Origin: an uncultured Clostridia bacterium
Lineage (GTDB): Bacteria; Bacillota; Clostridia; Christensenellales; Borkfalkiaceae
DNA length: 60,219 nt
Direction: 5' to 3'
Assembly (NCBI GenBank): GCA_944328845.1
Contig: CALVHV010000002.1
Span: 1 to 60,219 of the forward strand
A program made the translations under genes and the position numbers. The notes below the pieces were generated by a model. The model was not told the origin of the DNA, did no database searches, and saw only the letters and a program-made list of their open reading frames with translations. Each line of letters opens with the position of its first letter. The first letter of the stretch is position 1. This document shows, piece after piece, positions 6,636 through 36,529 of the stretch.

Positions 6636-6905
6636 GCAAACGCGAGGACAGGGAAAAGTATCGCGGGGCAGAGGATCTGACAGAGAGCGGCGGAAAAGGT
6701 GAAAGCGCCGCGTTCCCGCCCGTGGGAAAAACACCCGAGAGCGGCGGCGGCGAAAGTGTGCAAGTAGCCCCCGACGGGAGCGCCCGTTACGGCGCAGGCC
6801 TTTATCGGAAGGCACAGAGAGCGCAGAAATGCGTCAAAATTCAGGTGGCACCGCGAAGTCCCTTCGCCCTGATGATCTTCATCGGGGAGAAGGGGCTTTT
6901 TTTCT
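6636..6905 (+). promoter_or_regulatory. T-box riboswitch, asparagine-specific, upstream of asnB
   Basis: This is a tRNA-sensing leader. Stem I landmarks are visible: the AGAG bulge in CAGAGAG (about 6679-6685) and GGTGAAAG (about 6699-6706). The specifier position is AAC (6730-6732), an asparagine codon, followed by ACC. The diagnostic T-box AGGTGGCACCGCG is at 6843-6855, directly before a terminator with a T7 run (6857-6903). By family knowledge, uncharged tRNA pairs through the specifier and the T-box bulge and favours the antiterminator. The only gene downstream is asparagine synthetase, which agrees with the AAC reading. Confidence 0.93.
6857..6903 (+). terminator. Regulated terminator of the asnB T-box
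   Basis: AGTCCCTTC (6857-6865) pairs with GAAGGGGCT (6889-6897), with an inner CCCTGATGA/TCATCGGGG stem and seven T after the hairpin. It is the alternative to the antiterminator formed with the T-box bases. Confidence 0.85.
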
Positions 6906-27521: not shown

Positions 27522-28745
27522 TTAATCTCCCGCCTTGAAATTGTAGACAGGACGGATGATCTTCTGCACGGCCGCCGTGGGCTCGAGGTTGGCGAGGATC
27601 TCGTCCATGTCTTTGTACGCCATCGGGCATTCGTCCAGCGTATCCGCACCGACGGAAGTGGTGTAGATTCCCTGCATCTCGCGCGCATAGTCCTCCACAG
27701 AAAAGAGTTCGCGTGCTTTTGCACGGGAGAAGCGGCGTCCCGCGCCGTGCGGCGCCGAACAGTTCCAGTCTTCGTTTCCCTTGCCTGTGCAGAGCAGGCT
27801 CCCGTCGCGCATGTTGATGGGAATGAGCAAGGTCTCGCCCTTCTTTGCGGAAACGGCGCCTTTGCGGATGATGTTGCTGTCGTGATCGATGTAGTTGTGC
27901 ACCGTCTCGAACGTCTCAAATTCTGCCGCGTCGGCGCCCAGCCAATGGCGGAGCAGGACTTCGGCGATGCGTTCGCGGTTGCGGCGCGCAAACTGCTGGC
28001 AGATGCGCATATCTTCCAGATAATCGTCCCGATACTGTCCCGTCAGGTGGCAGAGTTCGGGCGGAAAATCGGGGGCATGAGACGCAAACTCCGCTTCGAG
28101 GGCGGCAAGCGCGCCCTGGATCTCCTGTCTGCGCCCTTCCTCTTTGTAGCGCGCGATCAGCTCTCTGCGTGCGTCAAACAGTTCTTTTTTGCCGCTGCAA
28201 AGATCTACGGCCAGCTGCTGGTGCGCTTCCGCCACCTGTTTGCCGAGGTTGCGGCTGCCCGTATGGATAATGAGGTAAAAGTTTCCGTCGTCGTCCTTGT
28301 CCGCCTCGATAAAGTGGTTGCCGCCGCCCAGCGTGCCGAGGCTGCGCTCGAGTCGGCCGCTGTTTTTCAGGTCGCGGTAGCAATGCAGCTTTTGCAGGTC
28401 GGGAAAGCGCTCGGGGCGCCCTTCGTGTACGTTCATGCCCGCGGGGACAAAGCGGCGCACGGTCTCGTCCAGTTTTTCGAAATCGAAGTTTCCCTTGCCG
28501 AGCAGAACGGTGCGCATCCCGCAGCCGATGTCCACGCCAACAATGTTGGGTATGACGGCACCGCGGATATCGGCGGTAAAGCCGATCACGCAGCCCGTGC
28601 CCGCGTGCACATCGGGCATCACGCGCACCTTTGCACCCTCCGCAAAGGGCAGATCGCACAGTGCGCCGATCTGCGCGAGGGCGGTCTCTTCGGCGGTGTC
28701 GGTAAATATTTTTGCGGAAGTGTATTTCCCGCGGATCTCGATCAT
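27522..28745 (-). CDS. rtcB: RNA ligase RtcB (3'-phosphate/5'-OH)
   Basis: 407 aa. RtcB joins RNA 2',3'-cyclic phosphate or 3'-phosphate ends to 5'-OH ends using GTP and Mn. Motifs: PDVHAG (44-49), metal cysteine C75 in DIGCGM, GTLGGGNHFIE, HTGSRNLG, and the guanylylated histidine in SAPHGAGR. The ATG overlaps the slipin stop by 4 nt. It serves RNA repair rather than tRNA splicing in bacteria. No archease or RtcA is in the window. Confidence 0.94.
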   Translation of the reverse strand: MIEIRGKYTSAKIFTDTAEETALAQIGALCDLPFAEGAKVRVMPDVHAGTGCVIGFTADIRGAVIPNIVGVDIGCGMRTVLLGKGNFDFEKLDETVRRFVPAGMNVHEGRPERFPDLQKLHCYRDLKNSGRLERSLGTLGGGNHFIEADKDDDGNFYLIIHTGSRNLGKQVAEAHQQLAVDLCSGKKELFDARRELIARYKEEGRRQEIQGALAALEAEFASHAPDFPPELCHLTGQYRDDYLEDMRICQQFARRNRERIAEVLLRHWLGADAAEFETFETVHNYIDHDSNIIRKGAVSAKKGETLLIPINMRDGSLLCTGKGNEDWNCSAPHGAGRRFSRAKARELFSVEDYAREMQGIYTTSVGADTLDECPMAYKDMDEILANLEPTAAVQKIIRPVYNFKAGD

Positions 28746-29839
28746 GTTTTGCCTCCATTGCGCAGGTGCAGGATCTCCTGCAGCTGGCCGACAATGTCGC
28801 CGCCCGAGAGGGAGATGCTGCCCACGCGCTCGCAGATCTTTTCGACGTATTCCAGCTCTTTAAGCTTGTAAAGGGTAGGGTTTTCCTCCATGAGCCGCGC
28901 CGTGTTGAGCAGGGAACGGGTGGAAGCCACCTCCTCGCGGCGGGTCACCACGTTTGCCTGCGCGCGCTTTTCGGCAACGAGCACGGTGTTCATGATGTCG
29001 CGGATCTCGCCGGGCAGGATGATGTCTTTCACGCCCGCCTCGCAGATCTCGGCATACAGCCCCGCCGCGTTCTGTTCGAGCTTTTCGCGCACGCAGGCGC
29101 ACAGTTCGTCTTTCTTTTCCAGCAGTTCGTCCAGCGTATAGGTGCCCGCCGCGGCACGCAGGGCAAGCTGCGCCGCCGTGTACAGCAGGGAACGCACGTC
29201 CGAAGCGTCTTCCGCGCGTTCGGCGTCCGTCAGACGGTAACAGAAGGTAAAGTTGATGCGCACGCCCACCTTGTCGCGCGTGAGGATCTCCTGTCCGTTC
29301 ACTTCCACGATCTGCGGGCGCAGGCAAAAGGTCTTTACGCCGATCTGCGTACCGTTTGCCCAAAACAGGTATTTGCCGGGCTCGAGCATGCGCACGAACT
29401 TGTTGTCGAAGTACAGTTTTCCCGCTTCGCCGTCCTTGACATCCGCACGCACGAGCAGGAAAGGCGCCCACTTTTCCACAAAGGAAAGGGGAACATCCGC
29501 CGCGATCTCGGGTCGGGAAGTATCGAAACGGAGAAAGGAGCCGCCCTTTTTCCAGAACAGGTGCTCGCCCGCGGGCACCACGGCGTCGAACGCTCCGTCC
29601 TGCAGGCGGATGACCGCCTGCTGCGGCGTGACGACTACGCGCTCCGTCTGTTCGCACAGGACAGGGTCGGAGAGCAGGGTGTCTGCGTCCGCGTGGGCGG
29701 AAACAAGTTCGCCCGCCGCGCGCACGACTTCTATTTCTCCGCGGCGGGGGACGCGATACGTCCCCGCACCGAGGCACTTAACAAATTTGCCCTTGACAAA
29801 GAGCAGGCCGCGTTCGTTTTCGTGGATCATCGTTTTCAT
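28742..29839 (-). CDS. SPFH/band-7 (slipin-like) protein
   Basis: 365 aa. An N-terminal part with repeated beta-rich modules (HENERGLLFVKGKFVKCLG, then KLYFDNKFVRMLEPGKYLFW) precedes an SPFH core with IVEVNGQEILTRDKVGVRIN and a helical stalk ending near residue 320 (VAEKRAQANVVTRREEVAST). It lacks the hydrophobic N-terminal hairpin of many slipins, so membrane contact is uncertain. AGAGGTGA precedes the ATG. It is cotranscribed with rtcB, a pairing known in bacterial RNA-repair loci; its biochemical role there is not established. Confidence 0.85.
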   Translation of the reverse strand: MKTMIHENERGLLFVKGKFVKCLGAGTYRVPRRGEIEVVRAAGELVSAHADADTLLSDPVLCEQTERVVVTPQQAVIRLQDGAFDAVVPAGEHLFWKKGGSFLRFDTSRPEIAADVPLSFVEKWAPFLLVRADVKDGEAGKLYFDNKFVRMLEPGKYLFWANGTQIGVKTFCLRPQIVEVNGQEILTRDKVGVRINFTFCYRLTDAERAEDASDVRSLLYTAAQLALRAAAGTYTLDELLEKKDELCACVREKLEQNAAGLYAEICEAGVKDIILPGEIRDIMNTVLVAEKRAQANVVTRREEVASTRSLLNTARLMEENPTLYKLKELEYVEKICERVGSISLSGGDIVGQLQEILHLRNGGKT

Positions 29840-30144
29840 ATTTTTTCACCTCTTACAATGGATTTTTTCAAAACAAACGGATCGCGCGGGCGGCGCGGCA
29901 AAACCGTTGAGCAACGCCTCGCGGCGGCGGGGGCTGAAAGCCGCGGCGCACCGTCCGTCGTTGCGGTATCCCGATTTTGGCAGGGCGTTCGCCCCCGTTG
30001 CGTTTTTCGCTCTTTCCGCCGCAGCGGAAGGAACGGAAAACGCGTGATCCGTTTCTTCGGTCAACTCCGACCAAGGGGTCCGCATCAAGCCGCAGACAGA
30101 AATGCTTTTACGCATTACACTACTATCTCATGTAAGGAGATCTG
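29840..30144 (-). other. Long leader of the slipin-rtcB operon without credible gene
   Basis: This stretch between the tRNA-like element and slipin contains an open 89-codon frame (29846-30115, minus) with no ribosome-binding site and an odd composition, so it is not called as a gene. No closer promoter is visible; the nearest -10 box on this strand is the TATAAT at 30300-30295. A long structured leader is therefore likely. Confidence 0.4.
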
Positions 30145-30293
30145 CCAAACCACGGCAAAGCAAAGGAGTCGAACCTTTGTAGCGGAAAGCCGCGCATTTG
30201 CGCTTTCCCGGCAACGATCCCGGCATACGCTTCGGCATAGCCCCGCGCACCGCGGCGCCGCTGCAGGCGCCCGCGCTGGTCACGTTACGTTGT
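30145..30293 (-). ncRNA. Candidate tRNA-like RNA element upstream of slipin-rtcB
   Basis: On the minus strand a perfect T-arm occurs: AAAGG, loop TTCGACT, CCTTT (30178-30162). The seven bases after it (GCTTTGC) can pair with GGAAAGC (30208-30202) at 6 of 7 positions, like an acceptor stem. GGAAAGC can instead pair fully with GCTTTCC (30190-30184), so two folds compete. No anticodon arm or CCA is present, so it is not a working tRNA. A TATAAT lies at 30300-30295. Such tRNA mimicry recalls YrlA-type Y RNAs of bacterial RNA-repair operons, but the assignment is tentative. Confidence 0.35.
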
Positions 30294-30457
30294 CATTATA
30301 TGGCAAAAAAATATAAAAATCACGGAAAAAAAGTTGCGAGATCGTTTGTTTTTCCTTTTTTTGGGGAAGAAAGGTTCTTTTTTCGAGTGCAAGAGGAGAA
30401 AAGAGCGTTGCGGCGCGCGGCGCCCCGTGCCCGCAGGGACGCGCCGATGCACCCTAT

Positions 30458-30731: not shown

Positions 30732-31403
30732 ATGATCAATATCCTTGTGGTAGAGGACGACGCCGAACTCAATGAGACCATATGCCGCTATCTCAATTAC
30801 AGCGGGTACGAAGTGAGCGGCGCCATGAACGGAGCGGACGCGCTGCGGTTTATGGAAAACAAGAAGTACGATCTCATCGTCAGCGACATCATGATGCCGC
30901 TGATGGACGGGTTTGTCTTTGCGGAGACGGTGCGCGCGGTCAATCAGGAGATCCCCATTCTTTTCATGACCGCAAAGGACGATCTTGGTTCCAAGGAAAA
31001 GGGGTTTGCGCGCGGGATAGACGACTACCTGGTCAAGCCGTTCGATTTAACGGAACTCAAGTGGCGGATCGCGGCGCTTCTTCGCCGCGTCAGGATCGAA
31101 CAGGTAAAAAAGATCGAGATCGGCGCGTTCGTCATCGACGAAGAGGAGCATACGGCAAATTACAGGGGAGAGGAGATCGCTCTCACCAAGAAAGAGTTTT
31201 CCGTGCTGTACAAATTGCTCTCTTTTCCCAAAAAAACTTTTTCGCGGGCGGCGCTGATGGAGGAGTTTTGGGGGTACGATTCCAATTCGACTTCCCGTTC
31301 TGTGGACGTCTGCATTGCGGAACTGCGCAAAAAGATCTCCGAAGTGGAGGAGTTTGAGATCATCACCGTCCACGGACTCGGGTATAAGGCGGTCATGCGA
31401 TGA
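30732..31403 (+). CDS. OmpR-family response regulator
   Basis: 223 aa. A receiver domain (1-120) has acidic residues E8, D9 and D10, phospho-acceptor D52 (IVSDIMMPLMDG), and the conserved Thr and Lys (FMTAKDD, LVKPF). A winged-helix output domain (125-223) contains TKKEFSVLYKLLSFPKKTFS and ITVHGLGYK. AAGGAGAAG precedes the ATG. It overlaps the kinase gene by 4 nt. Probable targets are the membrane-protein genes downstream. Confidence 0.93.
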   Translation: MINILVVEDDAELNETICRYLNYSGYEVSGAMNGADALRFMENKKYDLIVSDIMMPLMDGFVFAETVRAVNQEIPILFMTAKDDLGSKEKGFARGIDDYLVKPFDLTELKWRIAALLRRVRIEQVKKIEIGAFVIDEEEHTANYRGEEIALTKKEFSVLYKLLSFPKKTFSRAALMEEFWGYDSNSTSRSVDVCIAELRKKISEVEEFEIITVHGLGYKAVMR

Positions 31404-32431
31404 AAAGGCGCAAGAGCAGATTCTCTCTGACGGGATATATCATCTTTTTTGCGACCATCCTCGTATGTGTCTGCGTCAGCGTGCTCGCGTTCGAGCTTGT
31501 CGGAAAGACGGGGAACCGACTGCTGATCTTTTTGGTAATGTTCGCCGCGGTGGCGTTGATGGCGGGCGTCTGTACGTGGATCGACTGTATCCGCCGCAAG
31601 TACATGGTCGAGCGCCCCGTCAACGAGATCCTGTCCGCAACGGAAAAGATCGCGGGCGGGGATTTTACCGTCCGCCTGCACCCCAAGCACGGCTACGACA
31701 AGTACGACGAGTACGACAGGATCTTTGAAAATATCAACAAGATGGCGGAGGAGCTCTCGCACAACGAGGTCCTGAAAACGGATTTTATCTCCAACGTATC
31801 GCATGAGATCAAGACGCCTCTCGCCATCCTGTCAAACTACGCCACGCTGCTGCAGGAGAAGGGGCTTTCGGAGAGTGCGAGGGAAGAATATACCCGCTCC
31901 CTCCTCTTTGCGACGAAGAGGCTGTCCGACCTCATCACAAACATCTTAAAGCTGAACAAGCTGGAAAATCAGGTGCTCGAAGAAAAGAAAGAAGAATTGC
32001 ACCTGGGGGACGTTTTGGGCGAGATCGTGCTCGGGTTCGAAGAGTGGATCGGCGAAAAAGACATCGATCTCGTCTGTGATATCGACGACGTCGTGTATCG
32101 CACGGACAGGACGTATATGGAGATCGTGGGCAACAATCTTTTGTCGAATGCCATCAAATTTACCCCTGCAGGCGGCAGGATCTGCGTTTCGCTCAAAGAC
32201 GAGGCGCGGGGCGTGGTGCTGCGGGTGTCGGACACGGGCTGCGGGATGTCGCCCGAGATCGGCGCGCGCATTTTTGATAAATTTTACCAGGGTGATACCT
32301 CTCACAAGGGGGAGGGAAACGGGCTGGGGCTCGCACTCGTAAAAAAGGTGATCGACAGGATCGGGGGAGAGATCGCGGTGGAAAGCGAAGAGGGAAAGGG
32401 CTCCGTTTTTACGATCACGCTCAAGAAATGA
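31400..32431 (+). CDS. Sensor histidine kinase with minimal outer loop
   Basis: 343 aa. Two transmembrane helices (about 12-33 and 41-62) are separated by only a few residues, so there is no outer sensor domain. Such intramembrane-sensing kinases usually read a partner membrane protein. HAMP-like linker (64-95), H-box with H135 (FISNVSHEIKTPLAIL), N-box (VGNNLLSNAIKF), G1 (VSDTGCGM) and G2 (GEGNGLGLALVKK). It is translationally coupled to the regulator. The 240-aa membrane protein that follows is a plausible partner. Confidence 0.92.
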   Translation: MKRRKSRFSLTGYIIFFATILVCVCVSVLAFELVGKTGNRLLIFLVMFAAVALMAGVCTWIDCIRRKYMVERPVNEILSATEKIAGGDFTVRLHPKHGYDKYDEYDRIFENINKMAEELSHNEVLKTDFISNVSHEIKTPLAILSNYATLLQEKGLSESAREEYTRSLLFATKRLSDLITNILKLNKLENQVLEEKKEELHLGDVLGEIVLGFEEWIGEKDIDLVCDIDDVVYRTDRTYMEIVGNNLLSNAIKFTPAGGRICVSLKDEARGVVLRVSDTGCGMSPEIGARIFDKFYQGDTSHKGEGNGLGLALVKKVIDRIGGEIAVESEEGKGSVFTITLKK

Positions 32432-32432
32432 T

Positions 32433-33155
32433 ATGAAAATTTGGGAAAGGGCAAAGGAAAAACTGAAAAAATACGCGCTGTTGGCTCCCCTCATCGAAAA
32501 TTACGGGGTCAGGACGATCGTGTTTATGGCGATCGGCGTTGGGTTTAACATCGCCTTTGCCGTCTTCAACGGGGTAACGGCCGTCCTGCACCGCTCCATC
32601 TGGTACGGTTCGATCGCGGGGTATTATTGTATTCTGATCTTTCAGCGGTCGCTGATCTTGCTTTCGTATTCCCTCGTGCGGAAGAGGGCGGGCGGAGACG
32701 CGGAAAAGCTGGCGCGGGCAAAGCTGAAAATTTACCTCGCTAACGGCGCCGTCATCGTCCCGCTCACGATCGCGCTCGGCGTTGCCGCCGCACAGATGGT
32801 CATATCCGACAATCCGTCCGTGCCGGGGGAGATTATGGCGATCGCCTGCGCCACGCATACATTTTATAAGGCGACCATGGCGGTCTACAACTTTTTTAAG
32901 GCGCGCAACGGCCGCGATCCGATCGTGCAGACCATACGCAATCTCGGCTTTGTGGACGCGCTCGTGTCCATGCTCGTCTTAGCGACGACGCTCATCCCCG
33001 CATTCGGGACGATGGACAGGGAAATGCGCACCCTCGTCGCTCTCATGGCGCTTGTGATCGTCGCGTTTACGATCGGGCTCGGAAGCAGTATGATCGTGCA
33101 GGGCGCCAGAAGGCTGGCAGGTATGGACAAGAAAACGGAGGTAAAGGATGAATAA
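32433..33155 (+). CDS. Hypothetical six-TM membrane protein of the two-component operon
   Basis: 240 aa with about six hydrophobic segments (28-50, 58-82, 103-125, 135-150, 170-195, 205-228) and charged ends. The ATG starts 1 nt after the kinase stop, so it is coupled. No family name is certain. Linked to a kinase lacking an outer domain, it is a candidate sensor partner or target. It overlaps the next gene by 8 nt. Confidence 0.75.
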   Translation: MKIWERAKEKLKKYALLAPLIENYGVRTIVFMAIGVGFNIAFAVFNGVTAVLHRSIWYGSIAGYYCILIFQRSLILLSYSLVRKRAGGDAEKLARAKLKIYLANGAVIVPLTIALGVAAAQMVISDNPSVPGEIMAIACATHTFYKATMAVYNFFKARNGRDPIVQTIRNLGFVDALVSMLVLATTLIPAFGTMDREMRTLVALMALVIVAFTIGLGSSMIVQGARRLAGMDKKTEVKDE

Positions 33156-33540
33156 CAGATTTACGTATGCCTATTCCGCACCGACGCCGGAGGAGCGGGA
33201 AGAGATCAAAAGCATCCGCGACAGCTATATTAAAAAAGAGATGACGGATCTGGAAATTTTAAGGAAAATGGACAGGTCGGTCAGGATCCCGCCCCTTGTT
33301 CTTGCCCTGGTTTTGGGGATCGCGGGGGTGCTCGTTTTCGGAACGGGGCTGACGATGGTGCTCGAATGGGGGAGCACGGCGTGGGGCGTGCTCGTCTGCG
33401 CGGCGGGCGTACTCGTCATGGGTGCCGCCTATCCTGCGCATTGTCTGGTACTGCGCCGCCAAAAAAAGAAGTACGCGGAAAAGATCGTCGAACTCAGCGA
33501 CAGGCTGTTGCATGGGGAAGAAGGGAAAACGGACAAATAG
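33148..33540 (+). CDS. Hypothetical two-TM protein, paralogue of the gene at 33713
   Basis: 130 aa. A soluble helical N-terminus (SIRDSYIKKEMTDLEILRKM), two helices (about 50-70 and 75-97), and a basic tail RRQKKKYAEKIVELSDRLLHG. GGAGGTAAAGG lies at the ATG. It ends the two-component transcript before a terminator. The gene after the terminator encodes a protein with the same layout and the same tail pattern, so one arose by duplication. Confidence 0.75.
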   Translation: MNNRFTYAYSAPTPEEREEIKSIRDSYIKKEMTDLEILRKMDRSVRIPPLVLALVLGIAGVLVFGTGLTMVLEWGSTAWGVLVCAAGVLVMGAAYPAHCLVLRRQKKKYAEKIVELSDRLLHGEEGKTDK

Positions 33541-33587
33541 CGCTCCGTTCCTCCGTTTTCGCAGGAGGGAAAACAGAAAACAGAGAG

Positions 33588-33620
33588 AAAAAGGCCGAAA
33601 ACTTCGGCCTTTTATTTTTT
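33588..33620 (+). terminator. Terminator of the two-component operon
   Basis: AAAAGGCCGAA (33589-33599) with TTCGGCCTTTT (33603-33613), then a T-rich stretch. Confidence 0.85.
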
Positions 33621-33712
33621 ATAAACTTTACAAACACATTACAAAAACCAAAACAAAACCTGACGAAGAAGTTCTATAATACAGCCAGAACAATAAAAAA
33701 GGAGATACAAAA

Positions 33713-34075
33713 ATGACCGAACAAAGACAAGAGATTTCTTTTGCAGAACAGATGCGCCGGCAGTACGGCGCGCACGAACAGACCAAATTAGAGCAGCTTC
33801 GCCGTCTGGACAGAAAGGCAAAGCTCCCCGCAGATATCTTTGCCTATTCTTTCGGCACGGCGGGGGCGCTCATTCTCGGCACGGGGATGTCGCTCGCCAT
33901 GGGCGTCATCGGCTCGTCCCTGGGCTTTGCGATGCCTCTCGGCATTGCCGTGGGCGTCGTCGGCATGGCGCTCTGCTCTGTCAACTATCTGCTGTACAGG
34001 GCGATCCTGAAGTCGCGCAAAAAAAAGTACGGCAAAGAGATCCTCTCGCTCAGCGACGAAATTTTAAACGGCTGA
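33713..34075 (+). CDS. Hypothetical two-TM protein, paralogue of the gene at 33148
   Basis: 120 aa. It shares the plan of the preceding protein: an N-terminal helix with LEQLRRLDRKAKLP, two glycine-rich membrane helices (about 42-90), and a tail SRKKKYGKEILSLSDEILNG matching RQKKKYAEKIVELSDRLLHG. It has its own TATAAT at 33675-33680 (-35 unclear) and AAGGAG before the ATG. It may be expressed separately from the two-component operon, perhaps as a target of it. Confidence 0.73.
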   Translation: MTEQRQEISFAEQMRRQYGAHEQTKLEQLRRLDRKAKLPADIFAYSFGTAGALILGTGMSLAMGVIGSSLGFAMPLGIAVGVVGMALCSVNYLLYRAILKSRKKKYGKEILSLSDEILNG

Positions 34076-34215: not shown

Positions 34216-34251
34216 AAAAACTGCGGGATCATCTGATCCCGCAGTTTTTTT
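34216..34251. terminator. Bidirectional terminator
   Basis: AAAACTGCGGGAT (34217-34229) with ATCCCGCAGTTTT (34236-34248), A5 before and T7 after. It lies between two convergent genes and overlaps the last codons of the WYL gene. Confidence 0.85.
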
Positions 34252-35140
34252 GGCGTAAGAGCCGCTCTTTCAGGCTTTCGACAAACGATTCGGGCGAGAG
34301 CACGCGGATCATCGGCCCGAAGGAGAGGATGCGGATGAGTACTTCCGTTTCGTCCTCTCTGTCGTAATACAGGCGCACCGTATAGCTGTTTTCGTCCGTG
34401 CGTTCCACCTCTTTTTCGAAGTGTGCAAAGTGTGTCAGCGCCCGCTCGAGGGCGTTTCTGCGGGTTTGCAGGGTAAAGATCAGCTGTTCGCGCGTCGGGT
34501 CTTCCCGCGGGGGCGCCGCATTCCGTTCGAGGACGGAGACATTGCGCATGCGCGCGAGATTGAGATAGCGGCTGCGCCCGATGCCCGAAACGCAGGCGCG
34601 GAATTTATCGTCTTTTTCCGAATATTCCAACGCGTAGGGGCTGCAGCGCAGGCGGTGGAAACTGCCGTCCCGCATGCGGTATTCGATCAGCGTCTGTTTT
34701 TTCTCCTCGATGGCGGTGAGCAGGGCGCGGAAGTTGCGGACGTACTGTTCGTCCCCGTAGCTGTCTCCGTCTGCATACACGTCGAAAGGGAAATAGTCCT
34801 CATCTGTCCAGAGGGGAGGAACGGATTCTGCCGCGGCGGGCGGCGCGTCGCAGAACAGGCGGAACCGCCTGTCCGCCCCGATCGCGCGCAGCCAACACAG
34901 TTGCAGCCTGGTCGGCGGCAGGGCGGGCGGATGCTTTATCAGGGGAACGCCGCCGCAGAGCAGCTGCCACTCTCCCTTTTCCAGCGCGGGAAGGATGGTG
35001 AGAAAACTTTCGGCAAACGCTTCCTCGTCGCAGATCTGCTTCATCCGCTCGCGCGTGAGCGGTGCGCTGAGCGATTCTTTCAGGATGCGCGCCACGGCGG
35101 CATAGTAGGCGCCGTACACTTCGTCAAACAGCTGCATCAT
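34229..35140 (-). CDS. WYL-domain protein, second of a pair
   Basis: 303 aa. A central region with QTLIEYRMRDGSFHRLRCSPYALEY is the WYL-type ligand-binding fold. A C-terminal part (VRLYYDREDETEVLIRILSFGPMIRVLSPESF) matches the WCX extension. The N-terminal 120 residues carry no clear helix-turn-helix. WYL proteins sense nucleotides or nucleic acid and regulate transcription. The ATG overlaps the stop of the upstream WYL gene (ATGA), so the two products are likely made together and may form a heteromer. Confidence 0.8.
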   Translation of the reverse strand: MMQLFDEVYGAYYAAVARILKESLSAPLTRERMKQICDEEAFAESFLTILPALEKGEWQLLCGGVPLIKHPPALPPTRLQLCWLRAIGADRRFRLFCDAPPAAAESVPPLWTDEDYFPFDVYADGDSYGDEQYVRNFRALLTAIEEKKQTLIEYRMRDGSFHRLRCSPYALEYSEKDDKFRACVSGIGRSRYLNLARMRNVSVLERNAAPPREDPTREQLIFTLQTRRNALERALTHFAHFEKEVERTDENSYTVRLYYDREDETEVLIRILSFGPMIRVLSPESFVESLKERLLRQKNCGIR

Positions 35141-36357
35141 TCCTCCAACCCGTACATGCGGTACATCTCGCGCATGTCTTGCTTGAATTTGTTTTCCACC
35201 GTGCGGTTGGAAAAGTCAAGGGAGAGGATGCGCCCCGTAAAGGTGCGGATCCAGCCCAGCAGTTCCTCGCTGTCGTACACCTCCGCGCGGAAGGTGTATT
35301 CCTCGTCTCCCGTCTGTTCTATGCTCCCGCCGCGGCATTCGCGCAGCATCCTGCGCAGGATGTATCCCTCGTCCCGTCCGATCTTCAGAGTAAACTGCGC
35401 CCGTTCCGTCCGCGCCTCCTCGCCGATCGAGGCGCCCCAGATCTTCGGCTGTATTTCGGCAAAGCGTTCGCGCAGTTCGTCAAAATTTTCGCACACGTCC
35501 AGCGCTTTTACGTGCGAAATAAAGTCCAGCCTGTACGCGCGGAAAACCCTGTATTGCACATCTCTTCCAAAGAGGTACCGCCTTCCGCTCTGTACGCCCG
35601 TCCCAATGCGGACGGGCACCACGCTGCATTCGTTTTCTCCCTTTTTGCTCCGCTTGCGAAGGAGCACCGCCCTCTTTTCGCGCATCGCTTCCAGCAGGGC
35701 GAGCAGCACCTCGTCGTCGGGGGTGCCCGTCACGTAATGGTGTTTGAAGCGGAAAGGGGAGGGGCGGTTTGGCAGTTTGTCCAGCAAAAAGGCGCCCAGC
35801 TCTCCCAGCGGCGCGGCTTCCGAAAAAAATTCCAGCGCCGCCTGCAGGGGTGCAAGGTCAAAAGCGGGCGGGAGGAAATACAGAACGCGTTTTCCTTCCG
35901 TGCGCTTGCGGAGAAGTTCTTTTTCCGCGTATTCGTTCAGCTTTTTGCGCAGAGTGGACTCGTCGAAGGACAGGGGCGCTTCAAAGGCGTTCAGCCGCCT
36001 TGCGATCTCTTCCGTAAGCTGCGCCGCCGTGCGCTCGCCGTCGGCAAGGATGTCGAAGAGCAGAAAGTGCAGCGTGATGTCCGCGTCGGTAAAGCTCTTG
36101 GCGGCAAAGGCGCGGAAAAAGGGGTTTTCCGCCGTGCGGCGGCTGTCCAACGACAAAAAGACGGTCTTCCCGTCCTTGTCCCGCCGCGCGCCCATGTATT
36201 CGTGCAGCCAGCTTTCGATGCGCCGCTTTTCGTTGTCGTAGGTGCGCGCGCTCTTTTTTCCCGCTTCTTCGCGCCCCTTGCACCCGTACAGATAAAATTC
36301 GCGTATGTAATCGCGCACCCGCGCAAAGTTTTTGATCAGTTCTCCGTATCCCGCCAT
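35137..36357 (-). CDS. WYL-domain regulator, first of a pair
   Basis: 406 aa from the ATG at 36357, with GAGGAC 7 nt upstream and a promoter just before. It opens with MAGYGELIKNFARVRDYIREF and YGCKGREEAGKKSARTYDNEKRRIESW, an N-terminal DNA-binding helical part. A WYL domain (about 215-310, EKRAVLLRKR, VVPVRIGTGVQSGRRYLFG) and a WCX-like C-terminus (LKIGRDEGYILRRML) follow. A related arrangement of two co-translated WYL genes is common in Clostridia. No defence genes are adjacent. Target unknown. Confidence 0.82.
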   Translation of the reverse strand: MAGYGELIKNFARVRDYIREFYLYGCKGREEAGKKSARTYDNEKRRIESWLHEYMGARRDKDGKTVFLSLDSRRTAENPFFRAFAAKSFTDADITLHFLLFDILADGERTAAQLTEEIARRLNAFEAPLSFDESTLRKKLNEYAEKELLRKRTEGKRVLYFLPPAFDLAPLQAALEFFSEAAPLGELGAFLLDKLPNRPSPFRFKHHYVTGTPDDEVLLALLEAMREKRAVLLRKRSKKGENECSVVPVRIGTGVQSGRRYLFGRDVQYRVFRAYRLDFISHVKALDVCENFDELRERFAEIQPKIWGASIGEEARTERAQFTLKIGRDEGYILRRMLRECRGGSIEQTGDEEYTFRAEVYDSEELLGWIRTFTGRILSLDFSNRTVENKFKQDMREMYRMYGLEE

Positions 36358-36378
36358 TATAAAGTCCTCGCTGTTCCC

Positions 36379-36407
36379 ATTATACCGTATCGGCATATAT
36401 TTTTCAA
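36379..36407 (-). promoter_or_regulatory. Promoter of the WYL pair
   Basis: Minus strand: TTGAAA (36407-36402), 17 bp, perfect TATAAT (36384-36379). Confidence 0.75.
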
Positions 36408-36457
36408 TATTTTGTCCGTTTTTTTTGCTCGTTTGCGGGAAAAATCGGGGCATAGGC

Positions 36458-36486
36458 TTGAAAGAGGCGCCGTCTTGTGGTATACT
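36458..36486 (+). promoter_or_regulatory. Promoter of the DUF5058 / M20 operon
   Basis: TTGAAA (36458-36463), 17 bp, TATACT (36481-36486). It is divergent from the WYL promoter 50 bp away, so the WYL proteins could act here. Confidence 0.72.
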
Positions 36487-36529
36487 TGTTACAAAGCGCA
36501 ATGCGCAAATCTATTTACGGAGTCGTGCT

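Follow-up and report, generated by a model that had tools for sequence, protein, structure and literature searches.

What opens the slipin-rtcB operon of an uncultured Clostridia bacterium, and what might it do there? The window analysed here, i.e., the whole stretch of 60,219 nucleotides (nt) from contig CALVHV010000002.1 (family Borkfalkiaceae), carries a gene for a slipin (an SPFH/Band_7 protein) followed by the RNA ligase gene rtcB, and the original prediction, made from the letters alone, held that this operon is led by an RNA imitating a tRNA. Our comparative analysis bears this out, as a structured, conserved RNA of about 400 nt (29882-30300; minus strand, like all features below unless stated otherwise) opens the slipin operon, covaries among relatives and shares with them a T-arm. 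That the slipin operon has a real and conserved RNA that mimics tRNA is, in our view, practically certain. The prediction had the right kind of element but too short a one, since two more conserved domains belong to it.

A conserved RNA at the start of the slipin operon

The leader RNA has three parts, each with its own covariance model: a domain of hairpins at the 5' end (R2), a tRNA-like module in permuted order (R3) and a 3' domain with strong covariation (R1). The window's genus was left out of the training of R1 and R2. The relatives come from a scan of species-representative genomes, in which the best 80 of 538 slipin relatives were named as loci, and among these 80 Clostridia predominate, besides one record each with the label Lentisphaerae, Fusobacteriaceae or Coriobacteriia. 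Upstream of two same-genus slipins, which are 90% and 87% identical at the protein level, both the T-arm and the region around it are preserved, and ahead of slipins from other genera at 47-49% identity the plan of the leader is identical while its letters are different.

The 3' domain (29882-30001) is matched by R1 with 55.6 bits (E 1.4e-12) and stops 42 nt upstream of the ATG of slipin. Two-sided changes are found at 31 of its 35 pairs in a MAFFT alignment of 36 sequences and at 33 of 35 when 76 sequences are fitted to the model; the cells with such changes number 306 versus 90 in shuffles for the unfitted alignment, and 855 versus 245 for the fitted one. R1 matches 75 of 78 named slipin loci, one of them weakly (L008, 21.6 bits), and has no match in the remaining three (L037, L073 and L089). 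It recovers the domain in 39 of 42 named loci held out of training, some of which are close kin of training members. The 5' domain (30219-30278; R2, 52.3 bits, E 5.1e-12) likewise shows covariation. Its first hairpin (30254-30271) was read by eye, and the R2 alignment places a second, asymmetric hairpin, CGGTGCGC..GCGTATGCCG, at about 30221-30252, in which 98.7% of cells are paired and two-sided changes occur at 4 of 9 pairs. Among 44 sources that were not used to train it, R2 matches 25 at E<=0.01, three of these in the window's genus.

Folded as a single sequence, the window leader is no more stable than its shuffles (z=0.24). Of the proposed fold and covariance check, the covariance part came out positively and the fold part did not, and the case for the leader RNA rests on conservation and covariation. 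No account of this RNA was found in the literature searched, which leaves room for an earlier description, and the portions seen of PMC10272220, PMC4012209, PMC7790460, PMC6514570, PMC7824862 and PMC8040213 do not mention it; the last of these reports thousands of candidate RNAs from human microbiomes.

A circularly permuted tRNA-like module

Between the 5' and 3' domains of the relatives, the module runs in the order T-arm, acceptor hairpin and D-arm with GG in the D-loop, as in a circularly permuted tRNA. In this module 96.4% of cells are paired, and two-sided changes occur at 6 of 14 pairs, all in the T-stem and the acceptor hairpin and none in the D-stem; its best conserved parts are the T-loop and the D-loop. 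The T-arm of the window (AAAGG-TTCGACT-CCTTT, 30161-30179) is perfect, as had been noticed, with 5/5 pairs and an outer C-G. When counted at >=4/5 pairs in 86 upstream regions (the window and its relatives), a T-arm is present in 76, or in 73 of 83 without the window's genus, compared with a shuffle mean of 0.71 and with 1 of 80 slipin coding starts as a control; it arises in 25 of 5000 letter shuffles of the window leader. The conservation upstream of slipin on which the tRNA-like leader had been staked therefore held. Two or three T-arms are carried by 23 of the 76 T-arm-bearing loci.

The remaining parts fared less uniformly. An alternative hairpin that was thought to compete with the acceptor stem is real (TGCC-GTGGTTT-GGCA, 30143-30157), but its competing role has to be given up, as it aligns with the D-arm of the relatives and is a D-arm mimic (R3, 12.3 bits, E 6.8e-4 on 481 nt). 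The acceptor-like stem with 6 of 7 pairs is not conserved and has as its sole support an Rfam tRNA-Sec match at E=0.8; the relatives place their acceptor hairpin between the T-arm and the D-arm, where the window has none. The window is thus an 'elbow-only' member of the leader RNA family. No tRNA cloverleaf was found in the window by ARAGORN, and an Rfam scan of its leader gave no curated match. Among the relatives, the leader of L009 has an Rfam tRNA match barely above threshold (30 bits, cut-off 29), clear tRNA matches occur in Photobacterium alone, and the other Rfam matches at the leader are sub-threshold YrlA, tmRNA or chance matches.

In the relatives, hairpins at the place of an anticodon arm come after the module. 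The hairpin scan of the window found one there (ATCTC-CTTACAT-GAGAT, 30125-30141), for which two same-genus relatives have the loop CTGTTAA. Loops of the form CTGT[CT]A[AC] in 5-bp stems occur at 12 places over 75 loci versus a mean of 0.02 in letter shuffles, with the motif having been picked after inspection of the hairpins at this place, and none occurs in 69 kb of slipin coding sequence. Two of the 12 occupy the position of the acceptor hairpin (L088 and L105). We take these loops to be those of tRNA-Asp and tRNA-Asn, on stems that here mostly differ in sequence. Loops matching in every letter the anticodon loops that carry a GUY anticodon (CTGTCAA, CTGTTAA and CTGTCAC), mostly on unlike stems, were recorded in L007, L009, L032, L033, L057, L058, L088, L090, L094, L097, L099, L102, L104 and L105, and one idea is that a tRNase or tRNA-guanine transglycosylase might act on them.

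Association with slipin and RtcB

The two protein genes of the window are intact and coupled, as predicted: slipin (28742-29839, 365 amino acids (aa); Pfam Band_7, 4.8e-24) and rtcB (27522-28745, 407 aa; Pfam RtcB, 6.5e-61) overlap by four bases at 28742-28745, where the rtcB start meets the slipin stop. Slipins of this kind are rare, being present in 3 of 40 genomes of the window's genus, with strong matches in 9 of 301 genomes of its family. The 3' domain of the RNA was found in 7 of these 301 family genomes, always 41-62 nt before a long slipin; the 292 family genomes that lack this slipin had no match. The two slipin genomes that R1 missed are G297, where a contig end cuts the locus, and G200, which holds the weak copy of L008. 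In a phylum sample of 398 genomes, R1 had two matches (the window's genome and G637), both ahead of slipin. A search of 50,697 phage records gave no slipin with E<=1e-15, nor did a pattern scan of viral contigs find one.

The distance from the RNA to slipin is 31-191 nt in 69 of the 75 named loci and 386-696 nt in the other six. In L066, an extra open reading frame (ORF) starts about 40 nt after the RNA and separates it from slipin; therefore the RNA is not an element tailored solely to the start codon of slipin. This intervening ORF (L066 3344-3982) encodes 212 aa and has no Pfam match, and a gap of about 680-690 nt is also seen in L038, L040, L086 and L107.

The leader RNA follows slipin more strictly than it follows RtcB. 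Among the 71 loci with enough sequence downstream of slipin, rtcB follows in 44, the gene for RlaP in 9 and either of them in 46. For the 25 loci with neither, an RtcB match was present elsewhere in 11 genomes and in none of the other 14, and three of the 25 (L073, L105 and L110) have rtcB just upstream instead. As the RNA is present where RtcB was not found, it appears to be tied to slipin rather than to RtcB. The idea of RtcB as its obligate partner was accordingly rejected as stated on these 14 of 25 genomes, of which 13 are metagenome-assembled genomes (MAGs) or bins, whose lack of RtcB is soft evidence, and one is an isolate (Robinsoniella, L053). Counter to this rejection, the three genomes of the window's genus with slipin and the RNA are the three with a full RtcB, a fourth having a partial match. 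In two of the genomes that gave no RtcB match, a peptide-release-factor-like gene comes after slipin (L062 5271-6488 and L077 6494-6901), and that of L062 carries PCRF and RF-1 domains.

Comparison with YrlA and other RNA-repair systems

The likeness to YrlA, the Y RNA of known RNA-repair loci, stands for the relatives and in part for the window. Both RNAs have the permuted order of T-arm, acceptor hairpin and D-arm, although the window keeps the T-arm and D-arm only, and both are encoded in an RNA-repair operon with rtcB. The YrlA model (RF02553) matches the module of nine relatives with 25.8-38.1 bits, all under the curated 69, and has no match in the window, nor in a scanned set of seven loci. 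In eight of the relatives, these matches span at most positions 23-86 of the 114 in the model, so that its end stem outside the tRNA-like module is unmatched in Clostridia; Photobacterium has one full-length but weak match (27 bits, E 0.095). The end stem of YrlA outside the module is the part that binds Ro. Unlike YrlA, the leader RNA is linked to slipin, measures about 400 nt with its extra conserved 5' and 3' domains, and has no Ro/Rsr gene found alongside. The absence of such a gene, noted earlier for this locus, extends to the window's genome (81% complete), in which TROVE was not found, and TROVE (PF05731) was likewise found in none of 40 genomes of the window's genus and in none of 47 genomes of the 80 named slipin loci, many of these genomes being incomplete, while a positive-control genome matched. 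According to PMC7790460, the Y RNA of Deinococcus tethers its Ro protein to PNPase, and the role of YrlA itself is given as unknown.

Several other systems resemble the operon in part. The RtcR-controlled rtcBA operon of Salmonella is, in the portion seen of PMC7790460, an RNA-repair operon containing a tRNA-like RNA, as here. RtcR-type regulators adjoin the slipin operons of Citrobacter, Photobacterium and Burkholderia, like those of the rtcBA system, whereas in Clostridia the neighbouring regulators are of the WYL type and the operon has its own promoter box. No rtcA was seen by eye among the ORFs near the window operon, and no search was aimed at it. In Anabaena, the available text of PMC10272220 describes rtcB and a slipin gene, the same two genes as here, rising together in a trcR mutant and under chloramphenicol stress; in contrast to the present operon, these have distant locus tags (all3526 and alr0740) and another regulator, and that text mentions no leader RNA. 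RlaP (PF10127) works beside RNA ligases according to the excerpts of PMC7824862 and PMC6514570, in which neither a leader RNA nor slipin is mentioned, and it is likewise present here, after slipin in nine named loci.

Possible roles of the leader RNA

The reading that we tentatively prefer, with slightly less than even confidence, is that the RNA acts in trans as a partner of slipin, in the manner of a Y RNA. Upon RNA damage, the WYL-type regulators (RtcR in Pseudomonadota) would switch on the RNA, slipin and the repair enzymes together, with the RNA being transcribed from the operon's own promoter along with the genes. Through its 5' and 3' domains, the RNA would stay in a membrane complex with the slipin assembly, and its mimic of the tRNA elbow would recruit or hold tRNA-handling proteins, i.e., RtcB or RlaP (an end-mending polymerase); alternatively, its cargo might be an attacking tRNase, which would thereby be decoyed. 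A slipin-bound ribonucleoprotein (RNP) is favoured because the RNA accompanies slipin also in genomes that gave no RtcB match, and because the Deinococcus Y RNA is a protein tether (PMC7790460). The permuted order shared with the YrlA model, the neighbouring RNA-repair genes and the ORF between RNA and slipin in L066 also speak for it. Several observations weigh against such a partner role. The RNA lies 5' of and near the first gene, which suits a cis leader equally well, and no terminator between RNA and slipin was seen by eye. In the window itself, the module is degenerate, having kept the T-arm and D-arm and lost the acceptor hairpin, and a wide R3 search over 715 kb gave no window match at E<=1. 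We also know of no proof that a slipin binds RNA.

The main rival is a damage sensor acting in cis, which would be triggered when a tRNase cuts the mimic or RtcB re-seals it, changing read-through into slipin and rtcB or their translation; in a variant of it, free tRNA-binding proteins would bind the mimic with the same outcome. Such a sensor, the variant included, seems to us somewhat unlikely: the place of the RNA at the operon start, mostly within 191 nt of slipin, and the excess of anticodon-like loops over shuffles speak for it, whereas neither a terminator nor a structure sequestering the ribosome site was noticed by eye, another hairpin replaces the anticodon-like loop in most loci, the window loop CTTACAT departs from the CTGTTAA of its genus, and two of the 12 loops sit at the acceptor-hairpin position. 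The tRNA-like parts could instead serve maturation only, by recruiting RNase P, RNase Z or other tRNA enzymes that free the RNA. The two ordinary-order tRNA-like units at the leader position of Photobacterium would fit this; however, the usual cutting site is absent because a loop caps the acceptor stem in the Clostridia included in alignment A7 and the window has no such stem, and the best conserved parts are the T-loop and D-loop, so we regard a mere processing signal as improbable.

Two further explanations have lower standing. A true member of the YrlA family, bound by Ro, would share the permuted module and could give the matches of up to 38.1 bits seen in relatives, but the missing TROVE genes, the partial coverage of the model and the additional 5' and 3' domains make it very improbable. 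That the RNA is functionless debris of real tRNA genes is scarcely credible: the lone fold no better than shuffles and the lack of any ARAGORN tRNA in the window would agree with it, whereas the recurrence of the T-arm, the two-sided changes in the T-stem and acceptor hairpin and the placement of the module between two conserved domains refute it for the RNA family.

Returning to the RNA as a slipin partner, a broader proposal, which we hold more tentatively still, is that it represents a class of large RNAs partnering an SPFH protein, in which slipin and the tRNA-elbow mimic would form a membrane RNP as the core of the repair operon, RtcB and RlaP would be optional, and YrlA would be a shortened form captured by Ro. 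To bacterial RNA repair, the leader RNA contributes a large RNA family that covariation supports; it links an SPFH/slipin protein with an RNA of its own and indicates that tRNA mimicry in repair operons occurs without a recognisable Ro gene. Its roles could be tested in cultured Blautia, Oscillibacter, Robinsoniella and Subdoligranulum, or in those E. coli that have a partly similar leader and slipin.

Leaders outside Clostridia

Slipin operons of four Pseudomonadota were compared with those above. E. coli and Citrobacter have slipin-RlaP operons, with RtcR beside the Citrobacter copy, and the gene order is RtcR, slipin and RtcB in Photobacterium and RtcR, slipin, RtcB and RlaP in Burkholderia. 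The leaders of all four hold T-arms (L130 3640-5916, L131, L132 and L133). R3 scores 23.2 bits in E. coli, 21.3 in Burkholderia, where it covers the T-arm alone, 19.7 in Photobacterium and a weak 11.0 in Citrobacter (E 0.13). R2 finds its 5' hairpin in the Photobacterium leader (25.6 bits, E 1.4e-5) and has no match in the other three, and R1 gave nothing convincing in any of the four. Outside Bacillota, the evidence for kinship is thus the T-arm or tRNA-like part, the order of the genes and a single 5' hairpin. Among the complete genomes of E. coli, 1621 of 5426 contain most of the leader-slipin stretch.

Behind the 5' hairpin, the Photobacterium leader has two tRNA-like units that keep the ordinary order (found by ARAGORN; Rfam tRNA, 54.1 and 46.4 bits). 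A permuted tRNA would result from such tandem units by loss of their outer halves. Tandem partial tRNA-like units were also seen in the leaders of L105 (600-700) and L073 (3690-3800), which by eye look like intermediates between the tandem and permuted forms. The leader RNA family may preserve steps from tandem tRNA-like units to a permuted tRNA.

Promoter box and regulators

The analysis also supplies a concrete promoter box and regulator candidates. The -10 box reported earlier is confirmed as TATAAT at 30295-30300, with conserved spacing to the promoter box, and the RNA is expected to start near 30288. Upstream of it, a pattern scan located the box TCGCARCTTTTTTTCCGTGA at 30320-30340 (window copy 30320-30339), which is probably a regulator site in the -35 region. 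With the tighter pattern it is found in 40 of the 86 upstream regions, 19 nt before TAnnnT in 36 of these 40, and with the loose pattern in 41, one of which (L094) is a poor match. The window's own genome has one copy and none of the reversed control; of 33 genomes chosen for having the box, 29 have a single copy when two mismatches are allowed, and none has the reversed pattern. No exact match was found in viral contigs. As judged by eye, the box in many loci overlaps an apparent terminator of the upstream gene, and it persists where the other arm of the terminator-like hairpin is lost.

A pair of regulator genes lies further upstream in the window, one with a WCX domain (34229-35140; PF25583, 24.5 bits, cut-off 23.9; 42% to the L112 regulator) and the other with a WYL domain (35137-36501; PF13280, 30.1 bits, cut-off 21.8), and the box may be the operator of this WYL-type pair. 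The smaller regulator is a homologue of the gene found upstream of the RNA in most relatives, i.e., on the same strand and <=3.5 kb upstream in 50 of 69 loci. The WYL assignment is weak: in the six loci scanned besides the window, the larger protein is above the WYL cut-off in L053, L078 and L092 and below it in L062, L064 and L066, and the smaller one is above the WCX cut-off in L066 only, while for L112 the smaller protein alone was scanned. The tandem arrangement recalls PafBC. In the window, plus-strand genes at 30732-34075 (a response regulator, an apparent sensor kinase and small proteins) separate the pair from the RNA, and this block looks like an insertion that spared the promoter box. 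Unrelated to the slipin-rtcB operon, a T-box leader (Rfam RF00230, 93.5 bits, cut-off 93) lies at 6636-6874 on the plus strand of the window.

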